NCBI GenBank assembly: GCA_003218945.1
Contig: QHPE01000159.1
Span: 1 to 53,903 of the forward strand
Direction of reading: 5' to 3'
Source of the DNA: Verrucomicrobiota bacterium
Lineage (GTDB): Bacteria; Verrucomicrobiota; Verrucomicrobiia; Chthoniobacterales; UBA10450
Length of the DNA: 53,903 nucleotides
Below the pieces are notes generated by a model. It did not search any database. It was given only the letters and a program-made list of their open reading frames with translations, and was not told the DNA's origin. Positions 30,210 to 48,913 of this stretch are shown piece after piece. Made by a program: the position numbers and the translations under genes. Every line of letters begins with the position of its first letter. Within the stretch, counting starts at the first letter, position 1.

Positions 30210-31370
30210 ATGCCTGATCTTGATCAATTCCTTCAAGTCGTCGCCCGCCAGGGTGCATCGGATTTGCATATCGCTGAGGGACAACCCCCTAAAATCCGAG
30301 CGCAGGGCGACATCATGCCGATCCGAGCCGAGCCGATTTCGCACGACGAAGCCACGCGGATGCTGAGCGAAGTTTGCGGTGCGCGTAACTGGGAAGCGTT
30401 TAACCAGCGCGGCGATCTTGATTTTGCCTACCAGATGGATGAGCACTCGCGATTTCGAACCAACTACTTCAAGCAGTCGGAAGGTTACGCCGCAGCGTTT
30501 CGATTGATTCCAACAAGGATTTCGACGCTCGAAGATCTGGGCATTCCTGTAACCGTCAAGGACTTCGCTTACTTGCGTGGCGGACTCGTGCTCGTGACCG
30601 GTCCAACCGGTTCCGGCAAAACGACAACGCAGGCTGCACTGATAGACTTCATCAATGAAAACTTTTCCAAGCATGTGGTGACAATCGAGGAGCCGATCGA
30701 ATTCGTGCACGGCATTAAGCGCAGCGTCATCACCCAACGCGAAGTACCCACAGATTCGATTTCGTTTGCTGCCGGCCTAAAGGCGTCGCTGCGCCAGGAC
30801 ACCGACATTGTATTGGTTGGAGAGATGCGTGACCTTGAGACAATCTCACTTGCCTTAACCGCAGCCGAAACTGGCCTTCTTGTGCTCGGAACGCTCCACA
30901 CTAACAACGCCCGCAAGACTGTGGATCGCATGGTGGATGCTTTCCCCGCCGAGCGACAGCCACAGGCGCGCGCGATGCTGGCGAACTCACTTCGTGGCGT
31001 GGTAGCACAATTGCTTCTGAAAAGATCGGATCGGCCCAGCCGCATCGCTGTGAACGAGATTCTGATCGCTAACGCAGCCGTCGCCGCAATTATCCGCGAA
31101 GGCGCAACTCACAAACTTCAGGACGTAATCGTTTCCGGTAGAGCGCAGGGCATGCAATTTATGGACGACGCAATCTGGGCTCTACTGGAAAAAGGCATCG
31201 TTTCCCCGCACGAAGCATTCATGAAAGCGATCGACAAAAGCCGTTTCAAGCCATTCCTCTCGCCCGAGGAGGAGTCGCTCGGCAATGCCGCCGGTTGCAT
31301 CAGCGACGACGAGAAGCGGCCGCCGGGCAATCTTATGCTCGCCACTCGTGCCCAGGTCGGCACGCGTTAG
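30210..31370 (+). CDS. PilT-type retraction ATPase (second of two)
   Basis: 386 residues, paralogous to its neighbour. It has SDLHIAEGQ, Walker A GPTGSGKTTT (131-140, Lys137), EEPIEFVH, Walker B DIVLVGEMRD and LVLGTLHTNNA. The C-terminus is about 20 residues longer than in the first copy. Both copies keep all ATPase motifs, so neither looks degraded. Its stop overlaps that of the convergent dehydrogenase gene by four bases. Confidence 0.93.
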   Translation: MPDLDQFLQVVARQGASDLHIAEGQPPKIRAQGDIMPIRAEPISHDEATRMLSEVCGARNWEAFNQRGDLDFAYQMDEHSRFRTNYFKQSEGYAAAFRLIPTRISTLEDLGIPVTVKDFAYLRGGLVLVTGPTGSGKTTTQAALIDFINENFSKHVVTIEEPIEFVHGIKRSVITQREVPTDSISFAAGLKASLRQDTDIVLVGEMRDLETISLALTAAETGLLVLGTLHTNNARKTVDRMVDAFPAERQPQARAMLANSLRGVVAQLLLKRSDRPSRIAVNEILIANAAVAAIIREGATHKLQDVIVSGRAQGMQFMDDAIWALLEKGIVSPHEAFMKAIDKSRFKPFLSPEEESLGNAAGCISDDEKRPPGNLMLATRAQVGTR

Positions 31371-37700: not shown

Positions 37701-39152
37701 TCAATCCTCGTCGTCGGATGCCACTTCGCAGAGAACCATCTGGCGTTTGCTGTAATCCTGCACACGAGCAATAGGACGTGCGCGAAGTGGTGCCCATCTT
37801 CGCGCGCTTAGCGCTTCCGATTCATCTTCAACTCGAACAAGAAAGTAACGGGCATCGTGGGGCAGGTTCTTTACGTAGCTCACGTAGTGCACCGGCGCTT
37901 TCACATAGAAAAAGACCGGCTGATAATCCGGATTCACCGCATAAAGGATTTCATTGGTGGGCACGACCGCATTGACTTCAGCAGCTGCCTTTTTCACCTG
38001 CTGTCTGTTCCTCAGGATCACTGCCGTGACCGGGTAACCAATCGCACCTATCACAAGCCCCAGGCCGACGAAAGCCACCACCACATTCGTCCAGGCGCGC
38101 TCCTTGGCAATGCGCTTTGGCCACTCCAACGCGTTACCGGCACAAATCATTCCCAGCAGCCACGATGCTGGAACTATCGCCGGCATGCTGTATCGCGCGA
38201 CTGCGCCGGGAACCAGACTGACGGCGACGAATGGTACTGCGGTTCCCCAAGATAACGCCCACGCCATCCTCCGCTCCGCTTCATCGTGAAATTTTGAAAA
38301 TCGCGCAAACGGGAGCAGAAGAAGCCATGGCAGAAAATAAATGAGGCCGCGCGGGATATTTTGGATCCAGCTAAAAAATTTGAAATCGATGCCTTTCAAT
38401 CGTCCCGTGTACTGAGCAGACCATTTGCCCATGGCAACCTCTGAGGTCGTCATGTAGACAAACGGAATGGCCCATGCCGCCGCAATTCCAAGCATGACTG
38501 CGAGCGCGAGGAAGTGCCCGGGGTGAACGAGAAGCCGCCAATCTTTCGAATACGCGAGAACGGCTACCACAATCCCGTAGAAAAATATGAGATGCGTAGG
38601 GCCTTTGGCCAGCAGACCAAGTCCGAGGAAAACGGATGCCGGAAGCCAGATGAGCCACGGCGATTTCTTTTGGAGGAAAAAGCTCAGCCAAAAAATAATC
38701 GCCAACCCGCAAAGCGAGACATACAGCGCCTCGATCTCAATCAACCGACCTTTTTCTATGATGCCGATGTTAGTCATCCAAATCAGTGCTGCGAGCATCG
38801 ATCCTTTGGGAGTAAGACTCGCGCGCGCGACAATGACGAAGGCAATGGCCACTGCGAGCACCGAAACGACCGAAGGCAGACGCGCCGTCCATTCATTGCG
38901 CACTCCGAACGTTTCAAAGGATGCAGCTACCAGCCAGTTTACCAGGGGCGGTTTCCGGTAGTACGGATTACTGCCAACTTGGGGGACAATGTAGTTACCC
39001 GTTTCAAGCATCCGAATGGCCGGCAAGATTCGGCGGCCTTCTTCCCCCTTAATCGCAATCGAACCGAGCGCAGGCAAATAAATCATCGCCCATGCGAGCA
39101 CAACGACAGCGATGGCGCGAGTTCGTGAATTTACTAGGTCTTGAATACTCAA
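37701..39152 (-). CDS. PMT/ArnT-like glycosyltransferase, membrane
   Basis: 483 residues with about ten to twelve hydrophobic segments. The first periplasmic loop has EEGRR (36-40) followed by YYRKPPLVNW, the acidic/KPPL pattern of GT39/GT83 enzymes that use polyprenyl-phosphate sugars (for example ArnT). A soluble domain of about 80 residues ends the protein. The acceptor could be lipid A or a protein; this cannot be decided. It is transcribed away from nusA. Confidence 0.88.
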   Translation of the reverse strand: MSIQDLVNSRTRAIAVVVLAWAMIYLPALGSIAIKGEEGRRILPAIRMLETGNYIVPQVGSNPYYRKPPLVNWLVAASFETFGVRNEWTARLPSVVSVLAVAIAFVIVARASLTPKGSMLAALIWMTNIGIIEKGRLIEIEALYVSLCGLAIIFWLSFFLQKKSPWLIWLPASVFLGLGLLAKGPTHLIFFYGIVVAVLAYSKDWRLLVHPGHFLALAVMLGIAAAWAIPFVYMTTSEVAMGKWSAQYTGRLKGIDFKFFSWIQNIPRGLIYFLPWLLLLPFARFSKFHDEAERRMAWALSWGTAVPFVAVSLVPGAVARYSMPAIVPASWLLGMICAGNALEWPKRIAKERAWTNVVVAFVGLGLVIGAIGYPVTAVILRNRQQVKKAAAEVNAVVPTNEILYAVNPDYQPVFFYVKAPVHYVSYVKNLPHDARYFLVRVEDESEALSARRWAPLRARPIARVQDYSKRQMVLCEVASDDED

Positions 39153-39268
39153 TTGTTGCTCCCGACTTATCCGAAGCTAAGCAGCGAACGTCAAATCAAA
39201 CCGAACCGCCGCTTGACGGGAAGGATTCGGAAACCTAAACTACAGGTCTAGTCCGCGCGCTGATCGGA

Positions 39269-39294
39269 GTGGGAACTGGTGTCCCACTTTTTTT
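39269..39294 (+). terminator. Terminator-like hairpin in the nusA leader
   Basis: GTGGGA (39269-39274) pairs with TCCCAC (39282-39287) across a seven-base loop and is followed by seven T residues. It reads toward nusA, 24 bases before the chosen start codon. No plus-strand gene lies between it and 31370. It would therefore end either stray upstream transcripts or the leader of the nusA operon itself. Confidence 0.75.
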
Positions 39295-39317
39295 AGTCTG
39301 CGGGCTGCATGTTTTTT

Positions 39318-40568
39318 ATGAATGCCGAATTTATCGCCATGCTCGATTACCTGGAGCGGGAGCGCGGGATCAAACGCGAAATCCTGATTGAGGCGGTTTC
39401 GAATGCATTGCTGTCAGCCTCGAAAAAGAGTGTCGGGGCGTCTCGCGATTTGCACATCGATATTAACCGCAAGACTGGCGAAATCCGAGCGCTGGCAAAT
39501 TTGCTCGTCGTTGACCAGGTTACTAATCCGCAGGATGAAATCGAGCTCTCAAAAGCGCGCAAAATTAAGGCCGACGTAAACGTCGGCGACGCGGTAGAAG
39601 TTGAAGTCACGCCGAAAAATTTCGGGCGTATCGCGGCGCAGACTGCCAAACAAGCGATGATGCAGCGGATTCGCCAGGCCGAGAAGGAAATGATTTACGA
39701 GGAATTCAAAGATCGAGCGGGCGAAATCGTTAGTGGCACGGTGCGGCGTTTCGATCGTTCCGATGTCATTCTCGATCTTGGCAAATTTGAAGCCGTCATG
39801 CCTCAGCGCGAGCGAGTCGCGGTGGAAGATTACAACGTGGGTGACCGTCTCCGCGCGTACGTCGTCGCGGTGGAAAACGGCGTCCGTGGCCCAGAGATTA
39901 TCGTGTCGCGCAGTCATCCAAATTTTGTGCGACGTCTTTTTGAACTGGAGGTAAGCGAAATCGCGGACGGCACAGTGGAGATTCGCGGCATTGCGCGCGA
40001 GGCCGGTTATCGCACCAAGATCGCGGTGTGGAGCGCGAATGAGAAGGTCGACCCGGTCGGCGCATGCGTGGGCATGCGCGGCTCGCGCGTGAAAAACATT
40101 GTGCGTGAGCTCAATAACGAAAAGGTGGATATCATCCGGTGGAGCTCAGATCCAAAGGAATACGTTCTGGAAGCGCTTAAACCGGCGAAGGTAAAAAATC
40201 TCATGTTCGATACGGAGAAAAAGAGCGTGCAAATCTCCGTCGATGAAGACCAGCTTTCTCTCGCGATTGGGAAAAAAGGACAAAACGCGCGGCTGACTTC
40301 GCGGCTAACCGGCTGGGAAATCAATATCGGCAAGGACACCTCAGCGACGACTGTGGTCGAACAGAAAGTCGCCCAAGCGGCACAAACCCTCGCCGGCACG
40401 CTCCCGCTCACCGAAGAGCAGGCGTTAACTCTGGTGAAATCCGGATTTACTAATCTGGAAGGATTGCGCGATGCAGATGTCCAGGATCTGGTGGATATTC
40501 TGGGAGTGGACGAAACAAAGGCGCGCGAAATTCATGATGCAGTGCACCGGCAGGAAGTCGTACATTAA
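39318..40568 (+). CDS. nusA: Transcription termination/antitermination factor NusA
   Basis: 416 residues from ATG 39318 (ATG 39309 is three codons earlier). NusA binds RNA polymerase and modulates pausing, termination and antitermination. Visible are the N-terminal RNAP-binding domain (to about 125), the S1 domain (GEIVSGTVRRFDRSDVILDLG), two KH domains (VGACVGMRGSRVKNIVREL and LAIGKKGQNARLTSRLTGW) and a C-terminal helix-hairpin-helix region (LTLVKSGFTNLEGLRDADV). It starts the nusA-infB-rbfA-nrnA-truB-ribF run; rimP, usual upstream neighbour in many bacteria, is absent here. Confidence 0.96.
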   Translation: MNAEFIAMLDYLERERGIKREILIEAVSNALLSASKKSVGASRDLHIDINRKTGEIRALANLLVVDQVTNPQDEIELSKARKIKADVNVGDAVEVEVTPKNFGRIAAQTAKQAMMQRIRQAEKEMIYEEFKDRAGEIVSGTVRRFDRSDVILDLGKFEAVMPQRERVAVEDYNVGDRLRAYVVAVENGVRGPEIIVSRSHPNFVRRLFELEVSEIADGTVEIRGIAREAGYRTKIAVWSANEKVDPVGACVGMRGSRVKNIVRELNNEKVDIIRWSSDPKEYVLEALKPAKVKNLMFDTEKKSVQISVDEDQLSLAIGKKGQNARLTSRLTGWEINIGKDTSATTVVEQKVAQAAQTLAGTLPLTEEQALTLVKSGFTNLEGLRDADVQDLVDILGVDETKAREIHDAVHRQEVVH

Positions 40569-40623
40569 ACATGGCTCCGTTTGAGGACGCTTGAGCCATG
40601 AGCGAGATTTTACAGGAAGTACA

Positions 40624-42885
40624 ATGGCAACGAAGACGAGCAGCAAAATTGCAATGCGTAAGCCAACCGCGAAACCTTTCGGCTCAGGTCGGAAGACTGC
40701 TGCTCCTCAGAAGCGCGACGACGTCGCGGCAAAAACAAAGCTTCCCAAAAAAGGACTAGGAAAGGATGTTGCCGGTGTGGACGCAGCGGCATCCGCCAAG
40801 CCGTCCACGACTCAGCGCGAAAAGCCCGAGCCTGCGGTTTCCGCGCAGGCCACTCCACATCCAGAGACCGTTTCGCTGATCGATCGAAAAAGACCGGCAA
40901 AAAAATCTCAGGACAGCGAAATCAAAACAAAACGTGCGGTTTTACCGCCAATTTCGCGGATCCGTGCGTCCCTCGACACTACTGCCAAAATTGCACCGCC
41001 CTCACCGCCCGACCAGACGCCCTCACCTCAACCGGCGCCTGCTGAGCCAGCAGAGAAGGCATCTGGCGAAGCGCCATCCCCTTCTGCGGAGCTTCAACCT
41101 GGACCGGAGCAGAAGGTTCTTCTCATAAAGCCGCCAATCGTTGTTAAGCAGTTTGCAAACGAACTCGGCTTAAAGCCCCATCAGCTGATCGCAGAACTGA
41201 TGACGCACAACATTTTCGCTAACATCAATCAGACGATCGAGCCGGATATCGCTGCGAAGATTGCGGAAAATCACGGGTTCATTCTAGAAAAGGAGCGACG
41301 GGAAAAAGGTGCAGGTGTTCACAAAATAGAACAGCCTGTCGTCGCTCCCCCTCCGCCGGTCATTGAAAAGAAAGAGGAACTAAGGCCGCGCGCGCCCATA
41401 ATCACTTTTATGGGACACGTCGATCACGGTAAAACCAGCTTGTTAGATGCGATTCGGAAGACGCGCGTCGCGGCCGGTGAAGCCGGCGGAATCACCCAGC
41501 ACATCGGAGCGTACAGTGTCGAGCACAATGGACACAAGATCACCTTCATTGATACACCAGGCCACGCCGCTTTCACCGCGATGCGCGCGCGTGGCGCGAA
41601 TGTAACCGACATCGTGGTGTTGGTCGTCGCCGCTGAGGACGGCATTATGCCTCAGACGGTCGAAGCAATTAATCACGCCAAGGCCGCGCCACACGTGAAG
41701 ATCATGGTGGCCGTAAATAAGATGGATCTCCCGGGCGCGAATCTCGATCGCGTGAAGAAACAACTGCAAGAGCATGCGCTGACTCCGGAAGATTGGGGCG
41801 GTGAAACGATCATTTGTCCAGTGTCGGCAACCAAGGGAACGGGTATCGATCACTTGCTCGAGATGATGGCCTTACAGGCGGAGGTAATGGAATTGAAAGC
41901 TTCACCTACGGCCAGACCACGCGGCACCGTCATCGAAGCGCAACTGGAAGCGGGTCGGGGCCCCACTGCCACCGTGATCGTTCAGATGGGCACATTAAAA
42001 ATCGGTGACCCATTTATATGCGGAGATTACAGTGGCAAAGTAAAATCCTTGCTCGACGACCGCAGCAAATCCGTAAGACAAGCCGGGCCTTCAACGCCGG
42101 TGAAAGTTCTCGGGTTCACTGGTCTGCCGAATGCGGGCGACGAATTCCTGGTAATGGAATCGGAGCGCGCCACCAAGCAACTGAGTGACGAACGGCTTGA
42201 GACGAAGCGAACGAACAAGCTTTTCGTTCCACAACGCGCTACCCTCGAGACACTGCTCGAAACAGCTGGAGGCAGAAAAGTGCTGCGGATCGTTTTGAAA
42301 GCCGACACCCAAGGCTCTGTCGAAGCGATCGTGAATGCGTTGAAGCAGATCGAAACCAAAAAAGTCGATCTGGAGATTATTCACTCAGCCGTCGGACCGA
42401 TTTCGGAATCCGACATTCTTCTGGCCAGCGCGTCCGACGCAGTGGTGATCGGTTTTAACGTTAAGGTTGAAAGCATGGCAGTCCCGGCGGCGAAACGGGA
42501 AGGAGTGCAAACCAAGCTTTACAGCATTATCTATGAGCTGCTCGATCAAATCAAAGATGCCATGGCCGGTCTGCTCGAACCGGAGTTGCGTGAAACCGTC
42601 ATCGGACACGCGGAGGTGAAACAGGTTTTCCAATTGAGCAGAGGCATTGTCGCTGGTTGCCTCGTGACCGATGGCCGCATCGCGCGGGCTGCGCGCGCTC
42701 GCACCCTGCGAAAGCGCCAGCCGGTTTATGACGGCGGGATTTCGACACTGCGCCGTTTCCAAGACGACGTAAAAGAAGTCCGTTCCGGCCTCGAATGCGG
42801 AATCAAGCTGGGCGATTTTAGCGAATATCAGGTGGGTGACGTAATCGAGTGTTATCAACTCGAGCAAATCGCCCAAAAACTGTGA
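40624..42885 (+). CDS. infB: Translation initiation factor IF-2
   Basis: 754 codons including stop from ATG 40624; AGGA at 40614-40617 is a good Shine-Dalgarno, so the TTG at 40591 is rejected. A Lys/Ala/Pro-rich N-terminal region (about 150 residues) is followed by the IF2_N-type helix region ([20 protein letters not shown]). The G domain has G1 GHVDHGKT, G3 DTPGHAA and G4 NKMD. Domains II and III and the C-terminal fMet-tRNA-binding part follow. It delivers initiator tRNA to the ribosome. It is 55 bases after nusA. Confidence 0.97.
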
Positions 42886-43019: not shown

Positions 43020-43370
43020 ATGAAACATCGGAAACTACGCGTGAACGAACTCGTGAAACGTGAACTCAGCGGCATTATTGCGCGTGAAATTAATTTTGAA
43101 GGCGCGCTGGTCAGCATTAACGCGGTCGATGTGGCGCCCGATCTTAAGAGCGCGCACGTTTTCGTAAGCACTCTCGGGACAGAAAATGGAGCCAGCGTGA
43201 TCGCCAAACTGGAAGTGCATCGCCCCGCGCTACAGGCCGAACTCTCGCGCCACGTGGTATTGAAATACACGCCGCATCTCATTTTTCATCTGGACGAATC
43301 CATCAAACGCGGTGCCCGAGTGCTTGAAATTCTGGACGACCTCGGAAAACGCGGTGGCCAAGACGAGTGA
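43020..43370 (+). CDS. rbfA: 30S ribosome-binding factor A
   Basis: 116 residues, full length for the KH-like fold. It begins MKHRKLRVNELVKRELSG and contains VDVAPDLKSAHVFVS and the end-region RHVVLKYTPHLIFHLDES. It assists 16S rRNA 5' helix maturation and cold adaptation. Its stop overlaps the nrnA GTG by four bases. Confidence 0.95.
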   Translation: MKHRKLRVNELVKRELSGIIAREINFEGALVSINAVDVAPDLKSAHVFVSTLGTENGASVIAKLEVHRPALQAELSRHVVLKYTPHLIFHLDESIKRGARVLEILDDLGKRGGQDE

Positions 43371-44356
43371 GTAACACGACGTTCGAAGAAGTTGGCCGCG
43401 TCCTGAGCGAACACCACCAGTTCGCGGTGCTCGGTCACGTTCGTCCTGACGGCGATGCGCTTGGGAGCCAGCTCGCGCTCGGCCTCTCACTGCGCAAACT
43501 CGGCAAGAACGTGCGCATTTGGAATGAAGAAGGCATGCTAGAAAAATATTCGTTCCTTCCCCGTGGAGAATTGCTGACGAAACCGCCTGCAACGGAGGAG
43601 CACGTAGATGTTGCTATCGCGCTGGACACCGCAATCCAAAATCGGTTGGGCACATCACTCGCCGCGATTGGCTCGGCGAAAATCTGGATCAACATCGACC
43701 ATCACCTTACAAATCCTGGCTATGGCGATTTGGTGATCATCGATCCGAGCGCACCCGCTACAGCAGAGATCATTTTTCGACTAATCAAGAGTCAGCGCCT
43801 GCCGTTCGATCACGATATCGCGGAGAATCTCTTCGCCGCGATCTCCAGTGATACTGGCTCGTTCCAATATCCCAAAACCAGCGCGCGCACACTTGAGATT
43901 GCCGCCGAGTTGGTGCGCGCCGGCGATCTCGACGTTGGGAAAATTAGCCAGCAGTTGTACGAAAACTATCCTCGCCGCAGGCTGGAGTTATTGCGTGAGC
44001 TGCTGCGAACGATGCGATTTAGTGAATCGGGCCGGGTGGCAACATTTGGGCTTAGCCTCAGGACCGCCGGAGAACTCGGTGTCATTCCTGAAGACAACGA
44101 AGGCTTGATCGATCATCTTCGGGCAGTTCGCGGCGTCATCGTCGCAGTCTTTTTCGAAGAACTCCCCGATGGAAAGGTGCGCATCAGCATGCGTTCAAAA
44201 GATGAACGGATCGATGTCTCCGCGATTTGCCAGACGTTTGGTGGCGGCGGACACACGCTCGCTGCCGGTGCGCGCGTTTTGGGGACGCTGGCCCAAGTCG
44301 AACAAAAAGTCCTGGAGGAAATTGATGAAGCCGTTAAGCGCGCCGGGCTCTCCTGA
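43367..44356 (+). CDS. nrnA: DHH-family oligoribonuclease / pAp phosphatase NrnA
   Basis: 329 residues from a GTG that overlaps the rbfA stop. NrnA degrades short oligoribonucleotides and dephosphorylates pAp. The metal-site motifs are GHVRPDGDALGS (His24, Asp28, Asp30), ALDTA, the DHH triad at 111-113 and the DHHA1 motif FGGGGHTLAAGA near the C-terminus. It overlaps truB by 32 bases. Confidence 0.93.
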   Translation: MSNTTFEEVGRVLSEHHQFAVLGHVRPDGDALGSQLALGLSLRKLGKNVRIWNEEGMLEKYSFLPRGELLTKPPATEEHVDVAIALDTAIQNRLGTSLAAIGSAKIWINIDHHLTNPGYGDLVIIDPSAPATAEIIFRLIKSQRLPFDHDIAENLFAAISSDTGSFQYPKTSARTLEIAAELVRAGDLDVGKISQQLYENYPRRRLELLRELLRTMRFSESGRVATFGLSLRTAGELGVIPEDNEGLIDHLRAVRGVIVAVFFEELPDGKVRISMRSKDERIDVSAICQTFGGGGHTLAAGARVLGTLAQVEQKVLEEIDEAVKRAGLS

Positions 44357-45056
44357 TGGCGTCCTGCTCGTCGATAAAGCCGAGGGAATGACGTCGCACG
44401 ACGTAGTGGCGCTGGCGCGACGAAAACTTGGAACCAAGAAAATCGGCCATTGCGGCACCCTCGACCCGATCGCCACAGGTCTGCTTCTGTTGACGGTGGG
44501 ACGCGGCACAAAGGTGCAAGATCTGCTCATGAGTGAGGACAAGGAATATGCCGGCACGTTCGTGCTCGGCGTGACCACCGATACACAGGACCGCGCAGGC
44601 GAAGTGATTCAGCAGCGACCTGTGCCCGCGCTGGATGAGCATCAAATCCGGGCCACCTTCGAAAAATTCCGCGGCGACTTTTACCAGCTGCCGCCGATGG
44701 TCTCCGCAAAAAAGCAGGGCGGGGTGCCGCTCTATAAATTAGCCCGTCAGGGAAAGGTAGTTGAGCGCGAGCCGCGCCTCGTCCATGTCTATCGCTACAC
44801 AATCGGCCGAATCGCCTTACCAGAAATCGACTTTAGCGTGCTGTGCAGCAAAGGCTTTTATGTTCGCACGTACGTTCACGACATCGGCGAAGTGCTTGGT
44901 TGCGGCGCCCATTTGAAATCGCTGCGCCGGACAAGGTCGGGCCGCTTTGACGTAGCCAACGCGCTCAGTGTCGACGAAATGAAAAACGCGACGCGAGAGG
45001 AAATTCTCAACCGGATGCTGAGTCTGCCGGAAGTGTCGAAGATGCGCGGAGCGTAA
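44325..45056 (+). CDS. truB: tRNA pseudouridine-55 synthase
   Basis: 243 residues. Catalytic Asp47 is in CGTLDPIATG; KEYAGTFVLG, PPMVSAKK and KGFYVRTYVHDIG follow. It makes pseudouridine 55 in the T-loop of tRNA. The ATG at 44325 has GGAGG at 44314-44318, six bases upstream, inside the end of nrnA, so the ORF extending upstream is not the gene. The 32-base overlap with nrnA implies coupled translation. Confidence 0.96.
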   Translation: MKPLSAPGSPDGVLLVDKAEGMTSHDVVALARRKLGTKKIGHCGTLDPIATGLLLLTVGRGTKVQDLLMSEDKEYAGTFVLGVTTDTQDRAGEVIQQRPVPALDEHQIRATFEKFRGDFYQLPPMVSAKKQGGVPLYKLARQGKVVEREPRLVHVYRYTIGRIALPEIDFSVLCSKGFYVRTYVHDIGEVLGCGAHLKSLRRTRSGRFDVANALSVDEMKNATREEILNRMLSLPEVSKMRGA

Positions 45057-45187
45057 GCAAATGAGGAGTGATTCGTTACAGTGTTACGTCGTTACATTGG
45101 AGCCCCTTATGACCTTGACCCCTGTTGTGACCGCTTAACGCTTCAACTGTTTAACGGTTCAACGCGGCGAGGCCATTCTTAATTCAC

Positions 45188-46120
45188 ATGATGCAAATCC
45201 TTCGCTCGGTTCCGGAGCTCTCGCCCTTACCTGGACCGCTCTTTCTCGCCATCGGCGTCTTCGACGGTGTTCATCTCGGTCATCAGGCGGTTATCTCCAC
45301 TTCTGCCGAGCACGCGCGGGCGGAAAACGGAACGCCCGTCGTAGTCACGTTTGATCCCCACCCGGAGAAAGTCTTGCGGCCGGAGAAAGCGCCGCATTTG
45401 CTTACCGCCACGGCGCACAAGATCGCTCTGATTCGGATGCTTGGGGTGAGGCATCTTCTCATCATTGCGTTCGATAAACAGTTCGCCGCAACCGAGCCGG
45501 AGGACTTTGTGCAGCAGTTGGTTCAACATTCCAAACCTCTGCGTGAAATTTGCGTCGGGCACGAATGGTCGTTTGGGAAAAATCGACGCGGCAACCTTCA
45601 GTTGCTCACCAAGCTCGGCGCAAACTTCGACTTCAACGTAGTTGGAATTCGGCCTGTGACCGTTAACGGCGAAATCGTAAGTAGCACGACGATCCGCCGT
45701 GCTGTGGAAGCCGGCGATTTTAAAAAAGCCGCGGTGATGCTTGGCCGTGAATACACGATTCTGGGAACGGTTGTCCACGGCGATGATTTGGGAAAGAAAA
45801 TCGGATTTCAGACAGCAAATCTGAGTGCTCATAGCGAACAGTTTCCACCGAACGGCGTTTATTTTGCCGAGGCAAAGCTGGAAGGTGTTGTCTATCCCGG
45901 CGTTGTGAACCTCGGTTATCGACCCACCATCAGCAGCGGCAAATCGGACCGTGTTCTTGAAATTCATCTGCTTGATTTCAAGCGCGAAATTTACGGCCGA
46001 GAATTGGAACTCCGTTTCGTCCGTTATCTCAGGCCCGAAAAGAAGTTCGAGAACGTTGACGCGCTCGTGCGGCAGATCGAACGTGATGTTCAGCAGGCGC
46101 GCGGCTTTTGCGCCCAATAA
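45188..46120 (+). CDS. ribF: Bifunctional riboflavin kinase / FAD synthetase
   Basis: 310 residues. The N-terminal FAD synthetase has GVFDGVHLGHQ and the NTP-transfer motif SSTTIRR. The C-terminal flavokinase has IGFQTANL and GVVNLGYRPT. It converts riboflavin to FMN and FAD. It ends the nusA run, 131 bases after truB; that spacer has repeated GTTACA and CGCTTAACG-like strings, so it may also have its own promoter. Confidence 0.96.
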   Translation: MMQILRSVPELSPLPGPLFLAIGVFDGVHLGHQAVISTSAEHARAENGTPVVVTFDPHPEKVLRPEKAPHLLTATAHKIALIRMLGVRHLLIIAFDKQFAATEPEDFVQQLVQHSKPLREICVGHEWSFGKNRRGNLQLLTKLGANFDFNVVGIRPVTVNGEIVSSTTIRRAVEAGDFKKAAVMLGREYTILGTVVHGDDLGKKIGFQTANLSAHSEQFPPNGVYFAEAKLEGVVYPGVVNLGYRPTISSGKSDRVLEIHLLDFKREIYGRELELRFVRYLRPEKKFENVDALVRQIERDVQQARGFCAQ

Positions 46121-47850: not shown

Positions 47851-47926
<76 letters not shown>

Positions 47927-47935
47927 ACTTTTCGC

Positions 47936-48913
47936 GTGTATTTGTGGCGCAGAACAGCCGAACCCCAATGGGTTAAAGCACACGAACATCTTCTTCAAGC
48001 CCAGGCCCACGGCGATCTTGTGATCGTACACAGACCCGGGCGGAAGCGTTTTCAGCTTGAAATTGTCTGCAGATTCCGAAGCGCGGCACGAGCAGTAGTC
48101 AAAAAGTTTGGCGGACGCATCGAGCAATTACCGCCTGATTGGCTGGAGCGACTCATCGCTCGCAAGCCGAACGCAATCCTGATCGGAAAGCGCTTGGTCG
48201 TCGCCACCTCCATCGAAGCGTTGCAGAGCTGCAGTGTCCGCTGTCCTGAGTGGATTCCCCTTCGCCTCTCCAGGCCGTATGCGCCGGGGATAGCAAACCC
48301 TACAGCATACGATGACAAACCGCCGCTCCTTGTCATTCCTGCCTCGATAGCATTTGGAACCGGTGAGCACGCCACGACAGCAATGTCGCTTCGGTTCTTG
48401 GAAGAACTGAGCCGCGGGTGGAAGCGCGGCTGGTCGCTCGTCGATCTTGGCACTGGGAGTGGAATCCTCGCTCTGGCGGCGAAACGTTTCGGCGCGGGGC
48501 GCGTCACAGCCATTGATGCCGATCCCACGGCGATTTCCATCGCCGAATCAAACGCACGGCTGAACCAAATTCATGGTGTCACTTTTCGATTAAGCGATGT
48601 CCGCAAATGGAGATCGACGCACGAGACCAACGTCATCACTGCAAATTTACATAGCGAATTGCTGATAGAAATCCTTTCGAAATTAAAACGCGGCGGCCGG
48701 TTGATTCTGTCAGGGATTTTGCACCGCGACGAAGCCGAGTTTCTGCACGCCCTGTCCCGAAACAACCTCGAGATAATCAAAATCAAGCGTCGCGGAAAAT
48801 GGATTGCCATCCTCGCCCGTTGTAGCGGCACTTTGCGAGCAGCGGACTTGGCCTGTGGCAAATTTTTGCGGCGGTCACAGACCGCCGCTAGAGTAGAACG
48901 AAATGCAAACTGA
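47936..48913 (+). CDS. prmA: Ribosomal protein L11 methyltransferase
   Basis: 325 residues from GTG 47936. Methylates ribosomal protein L11. An upstream start would lie inside the tRNA, so GTG, ten bases after its CCA, is preferred. The N-terminal L11-binding domain is short but typical (TAEPQWVKAHEHLLQAQ). SAM motifs follow: FGTGEHATT, DLGTGSGILALA and DADPTA. The usual NILA-type active-site motif reads TANLHSE. The C-terminal 25-30 residues (about 296-325) are encoded by a palindromic repeat at 48821-48892 and are probably not part of the original enzyme. The start of the next gene overlaps by 11 bases. Confidence 0.9.
   Translation: MYLWRRTAEPQWVKAHEHLLQAQAHGDLVIVHRPGRKRFQLEIVCRFRSAARAVVKKFGGRIEQLPPDWLERLIARKPNAILIGKRLVVATSIEALQSCSVRCPEWIPLRLSRPYAPGIANPTAYDDKPPLLVIPASIAFGTGEHATTAMSLRFLEELSRGWKRGWSLVDLGTGSGILALAAKRFGAGRVTAIDADPTAISIAESNARLNQIHGVTFRLSDVRKWRSTHETNVITANLHSELLIEILSKLKRGGRLILSGILHRDEAEFLHALSRNNLEIIKIKRRGKWIAILARCSGTLRAADLACGKFLRRSQTAARVERNAN
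48821..48892. repeat. TGTAG-family element forming the 3' end of prmA
   Basis: Left arm TGTAGCGGC; right arm GGCGGTC-ACA-GACCGCC followed by GCTAGA. Read on the minus strand, its first 24 bases match the copy at 7837-7860 except one, so the two are copies of one element. Confidence 0.85.

Follow-up and report, generated by a model that had tools for sequence, protein, structure and literature searches.

The hairpin that precedes nusA is a genuine attenuator in the leader of the nusA operon and belongs to a known kind of leader terminator. It was found on a contig of a Verrucomicrobiota bacterium of the order Chthoniobacterales (assembly GCA_003218945.1, contig QHPE01000159.1), the whole 53,903 nucleotides of which are referred to here as the window; close relatives of this genome include Candidatus Udaeobacter MAGs. 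The reading that is considered probable is that of an attenuator in the 5′ leader of nusA-infB-rbfA which is subject to feedback by NusA, with a closing helix that forms around the terminator after read-through. What is new is the occurrence of a rimP-leader-like terminator on an operon that begins with nusA, in a phylum without detectable RimP, together with a covarying enclosing helix in the Chthoniobacterales. A literature search, with most subscription papers outside its scope, found no description of this variant.

The terminator and its promoter

An earlier sequence-only reading had proposed a hairpin with seven T residues at 39269-39294, inside the leader of an operon that includes IF-2 and RbfA. 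The hairpin is present precisely at this position and reads GTGGGAACTGGTGTCCCACTTTTTTT, the letters of the interval being GTGGGAACTGGTGTCCCAC followed by seven T. The segment 39262-39300 folds at -12.2 kcal/mol. The operon content was likewise as claimed, the gene order being nusA, infB, rbfA, a DHH phosphoesterase, truB and ribF (Table 1). The encoded NusA retains its RNA-binding KH region (Pfam KH_5). Its start is the ATG at 39318, which is kept in relatives, whereas the ATG at 39309 is not, and about 23-24 nt separate the T tract from this conserved start. A mini-ORF before nusA (ATGTTTTTATGA) was rejected, as it is not kept in relatives.

Table 1. Positions of the leader elements and surrounding genes in the window.
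Feature	Positions	Strand	Basis or remark
PMT-type glycosyltransferase, divergent neighbour	37701..39152	-	ORF list, Pfam
-35 element TTGACG, predicted nusA operon promoter	39213..39218	+	Promoter scan; identical in 33/33 same-genus sequences
-10 element TAAACT	39236..39241	+	Promoter scan, genus comparison
Closing helix, 5′ strand AGTCCGCGCGCTGA	39250..39263	+	Fold z -4.33; covariation
Terminator hairpin AGTGGGA-ACTGGTG-TCCCACT	39268..39288	+	Sequence, terminator scan, fold, conservation
T tract, seven T	39288..39294	+	C-T5 instead in most same-genus relatives
Closing helix, 3′ strand TTAGTCTGCGGGCT	39293..39306	+	Fold, covariation; invariant in 33 same-genus genomes
nusA	39318..40568	+	Pfam NusA_N, KH_5; start supported by relatives
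infB (IF-2)	40591..42885	+	Pfam IF-2, GTP_EFTU
rbfA	43020..43370	+	Pfam RBFA
DHH-family phosphoesterase, truB, ribF	43367..46120	+	Pfam; remainder of apparent (predicted) operon

It had also been stated that no plus-strand gene lies upstream for about 8 kb. The nearest gene-sized plus-strand ORF ends at 31370, 7.9 kb upstream, and between 31367 and 39152 the main genes are on the minus strand. The hairpin was thus rejected as the terminator of an upstream operon. As the glycosyltransferase gene points away, the hairpin is not its 3′ end either, and a bidirectional terminator was rejected because on the minus strand the hairpin is not followed by a T tract.

A predicted promoter with a strictly conserved -35 element, TTGACG-17-TAAACT at 39213-39241, stands upstream of the hairpin, and transcription is expected to start near 39248, about 20 nt 5′ of it. 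With the promoter just upstream, the nusA transcript should pass through the terminator. The spacing between the hairpin and the -10 box is nearly fixed, at 19-27 nt in 78 of 83 leaders. The promoter scan returned no promoter-like site between the T tract and the nusA start, and on sequence the predicted promoter speaks against a nusA transcript that starts downstream of 39294, which had been named as an outcome that would contradict the proposal. The placement of the terminator within the nusA operon leader appears well supported by this promoter and by the wide conservation described below. Immediately 5′ of the -35 box, the block 39180-39212 (AACGTCAAATCAAACCGAAC) is conserved at 0.70 within the genus, compared with 0.42 nearby; candidate roles are an operator or a piece of a divergent promoter for the glycosyltransferase, with TTGACG on the minus strand.

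In a simple scan the site does not stand out, with 10 terminator-like sites in 8 kb against 11.4 expected. Under stricter scoring, a value of 23 is reached at three plus-strand sites across the window, and the two besides this one fall within coding sequence. The strong evidence for the site is its conservation. The top-scoring terminator of the window is at 11324-11295 on the minus strand, where a T run accompanies a very strong hairpin (AAAGGCTCCGCGG/CCGCGGAGCCTTT). The listed plus-strand ORF 47882-48913 is overlapped at its start by a tRNA-Gly (GCC) at 47851-47926 and therefore probably begins further downstream.

Conservation from genus to phylum

In pairwise comparison of 33 genomes of the genus, the -35 box has a mean identity of 1.00, with 0.93 in the hairpin and 0.99 in the T tract, and 0.94 and 1.00 in the 5′ and 3′ strands of the closing helix. 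The promoter spacer (0.49), the stretch from the -10 box to the leader (0.46) and the distal intergenic DNA (0.42) are far more variable. Since the leader stands at 0.93-1.00 and its surroundings at 0.42-0.49, constraint begins at the predicted transcription start and continues onward from there. In one same-genus MAG there is an additional NusA-like gene with about 40% identity (G017:C251:1812-2912), which is possibly contamination.

The hairpin is kept far beyond the genus, contrary to the prospect, raised with the original proposal, that it might not be conserved. When terminators within 110 nt of the nusA start were counted, 89 of 116 Chthoniobacterales leaders had one, against 54 of 1160 shuffles. 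The window's own family (f1) accounts for 50 of 51, followed by f6 (22/24), f7 (8/10), f12 (2/2), f3 (1/1) and f10 (1/1). None was found within this distance in f2 and f13, and the matches in f4, f5 and f9 are only ones that differ in sequence or position. As f4, f5, f13 and f2 have nusA with the terminator missing at the corresponding place, this control is dispensable.

In other orders of the class, a terminator precedes nusA in 38 of 40 genomes (shuffles 13/400; farther-upstream DNA 2/40; minus strand 1/40). In other classes of the phylum, the count is 17 of 20 (shuffles 6/200; the same two controls 2/20 and 3/20), the shuffle rate outside the order being about 3%. The distance from terminator to gene outside the window ranges from 23 to 108 nt. 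The element accompanies nusA in every lineage sampled and is present once in the window's genome, where the nusA leader was the single convincing match to the leader model. A second genomic AGTGGG..CCCACT (C237:4518) was set aside, having no T tract and being located elsewhere. Across 141 genomes of the class, the fixed pattern GTGGG..CCCAC..TTTTT has 30 matches, and 12 of these fall no more than about 60 nt ahead of nusA. A cultured relative with the leader is Chthoniobacter flavus Ellin428 (L090).

The stem usually reads AGTGGG...CCCACT, and certain groups have GCGGG, GTCGG or GTGGAAA instead. Five related stem types were defined; 49 of 50 f1 leaders and 33 of 65 from other Chthoniobacterales have one of them, as do 38 of 40 in the remaining orders of the class and 15 of 20 in the remaining classes of the phylum, against 15 of 8750 shuffles. 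That the stem keeps its sequence beyond its pairing across the phylum suggests recognition. In leaders from several other families of the class (L211, L214, L216, L223, L229, L230, L234, L238), a small hairpin, GCTGG...CCAGC or similar, sits 5′ of a nusA terminator of the AGTCGG/CCGACT type.

Known leaders and the case for NusA

Naville and Gautheret reported in 2010 that a GGGc...gCCC terminator before rimP-nusA-infB is the most ubiquitous transcription attenuator (PMC2965389). In their view the stem is recognised by a protein, for which NusA was the best candidate and RimP another, and the choice between the two was left open (PMC2965389). The Verrucomicrobiota leader shares with this rimP-leader an intrinsic terminator in the 5′ leader of a nusA-infB operon, 4-130 nt before the first gene, a conserved GGG...CCC stem followed by a U run, and NusA as the proposed regulator. 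The GTGGG...CCCAC types dominate here, with the lower-case c/g being A/T in the window's family and c/t...g/a in other families; in E. coli the sequence is CTGGGCTTTAGGCCCTTTTTTTATGTC. The first gene of the rimP-leader operon is rimP, whereas here nusA is first and rimP is neither in the operon nor found in the phylum. The leader is therefore filed as a rimP-leader variant and not as a plain member. A larger covarying helix surrounds the terminator in the Chthoniobacterales, whereas the 2010 survey saw neither a larger conserved element nor an antiterminator (PMC2965389).

RimP_N had no hit in 195 Verrucomicrobiota genomes and DUF150_C none in 115, while both searches were positive in 10 of 14 control genomes. 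The RimP domains are apparently missing in all sampled Verrucomicrobiota, though the operon has RbfA and IF-2, and 30S maturation would there have to proceed without RimP. The persistence of the leader without detectable RimP makes RimP an unlikely regulator and leaves NusA as the leading candidate.

The original study of NusA autoregulation in B. subtilis is reportedly that of Mondal in 2016. NusA-stimulated termination in the B. subtilis nusA operon leader is autoregulatory, as reviewed in PMC12288461. In both cases, a leader terminator controls transcription into the operon that encodes NusA, a likeness of position; NusA dependence has been demonstrated in B. subtilis, whereas for the Verrucomicrobiota leader it is a prediction. 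In the rimP-nusA operon of S. agalactiae, RNA-seq placed termination 31 nt after the transcription start and NusA feedback was proposed (PMC4448216). That leader is also very short (31 nt, against about 45 nt predicted here), but its operon begins with rimP and a closing helix was not described. A NusA feedback circuit has also been proposed for E. coli (PMC2965389). Its metY-rimP-nusA-infB operon has terminators 5′ of the nusA genes and NusA feedback in common with the present case, but has a long leader with several promoters, a tRNA and RNase III sites (PMC6511841). NusA feedback is favoured as the best candidate mechanism because the circuit has been reported in B. subtilis and proposed in S. 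agalactiae and E. coli, and because RimP was not found in the phylum.

Under NusA feedback, RNA polymerase would start near 39248 and the first 40 or so nucleotides would fold into the AGTGGG/CCCACT hairpin. At the T tract, either a short RNA of about 45 nt would be released or the polymerase would read through into nusA. Polymerase-bound NusA may aid termination at the hairpin, as its known activity and the B. subtilis example suggest. Plentiful NusA would thus lead to fewer full-length transcripts and scarce NusA to more. The sensor could also be another termination factor (NusG, Rho) or another product of the operon.

It is unlikely, though the most credible of the alternatives, that the hairpin acts as a constitutive partial terminator, fixing a low read-through for the operon without feedback. 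The lack of a conserved antiterminator fold outside f1 is consistent with such a device. The preserved stem sequence, however, points to recognition. Moreover, hairpins of this sort are acted on by a factor that the operon itself encodes, and feedback by NusA is on record in B. subtilis (PMC12288461).

The closing helix

From 39248, the leader folds into one long stem (z -4.33). Its outer helix, formed by 39250-39263 and 39293-39306, encloses the terminator and ends 11 nt before the conserved nusA start codon. In f1, this outer helix is 90% paired, and slid versions drop to 40-53%. The whole-structure covariation score in f1 is 0.160 against a shuffle mean of 0.107, above all 500 shuffles and with three both-side pairs, in an alignment that places genus g26 one base off. 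Matched changes are visible by eye: AGUCC/GGGCU in the window, AGUCC/GGACU in L061 and AGACC/GGUCU in L063. An RNA model built from the mixed alignment A1 was dropped, as it held only 7 pairs.

In 33 other Chthoniobacterales sequences, the 5′ strand is a better match to the distal strand of the same leader than to distal strands swapped in from other leaders (p 7e-5), and it also outperforms shuffled strands (p 8e-5); the combined p for 53 class representatives is 5e-7; coming from related sequences, these values are guides only. Outside f1, the helix was weakly supported by a shuffle test confined to the 16 nt that follow the T tract, and the larger representative set with the own-versus-swapped test gave clear support within the Chthoniobacterales. 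Following read-through, the 5′ end of the mRNA would pair behind the T tract, so that the terminator is locked inside a long closed stem. The helix would probably serve 5′-end protection or start-site shaping and would not compete with the terminator.

Competition is instead what a switch with another ligand would involve: IF-2, RbfA or another protein would bind, and the 5′ strand would alternate between the terminator arm, as an antiterminator, and the distal strand. In the window, the prefix 39248-39281 folds at -10.2 kcal/mol and sequesters the terminator arm, and in f1 the arm pairing beats shuffled arms (p 8e-5). However, own arms pair no better than swapped ones (p 0.11), other families have zero excess of arm pairing (p 0.4-0.7), and the matched changes favour the closing helix. 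Rfam 15 gave no relevant covariance-model match for the leader or 16 relatives, the gathering-level matches in the window being one tRNA only, and this lack of a family match also counts against the switch, which is considered improbable. An antiterminator as a general feature was rejected, since outside f1 there is no support for the 5′ strand pairing with this arm of the terminator.

Nine leaders without the terminator retain a 5′-terminal helix: L035, L038, L039, L076, L083 and L087 in f5, and L093, L094 and L100 in f13. Their helices read GACCGA...TCGGTC and CCCGAC...GTCGGG, with different inner content. These leaders, and a closing helix that stops so near the conserved start codon, would fit a conserved element that is essentially an mRNA stabiliser or translation-control hairpin, with termination incidental. 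This is very improbable, as a stabiliser needs no T tract and the tract is not only near-invariant in the genus (0.99) but stands behind the hairpin almost phylum-wide. A separate small RNA gene, with a 45-nt RNA ending at the hairpin and a later promoter for nusA, can be virtually dismissed: the promoter-terminator spacing of 40-50 nt would give a defined short RNA, but the short gap before nusA is devoid of a promoter-like site, and the single-copy element accompanies nusA in every sampled lineage.

More tentatively than NusA feedback, the terminator nested in a 5′-terminal closing helix may represent a Verrucomicrobiota leader RNA type that controls nusA in a phylum without RimP. The helix would add a second layer of control, through 5′-end protection or start-site access, that is absent from other rimP-leaders, and some families would have kept that layer alone.

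Most work on NusA feedback has been done in E. coli and Bacillus. A leader signature kept without detectable RimP argues that RimP is dispensable to it, with NusA or another operon product as the natural suspect. The covarying closing helix offers a concrete mutational target in an abundant, little-studied soil lineage.
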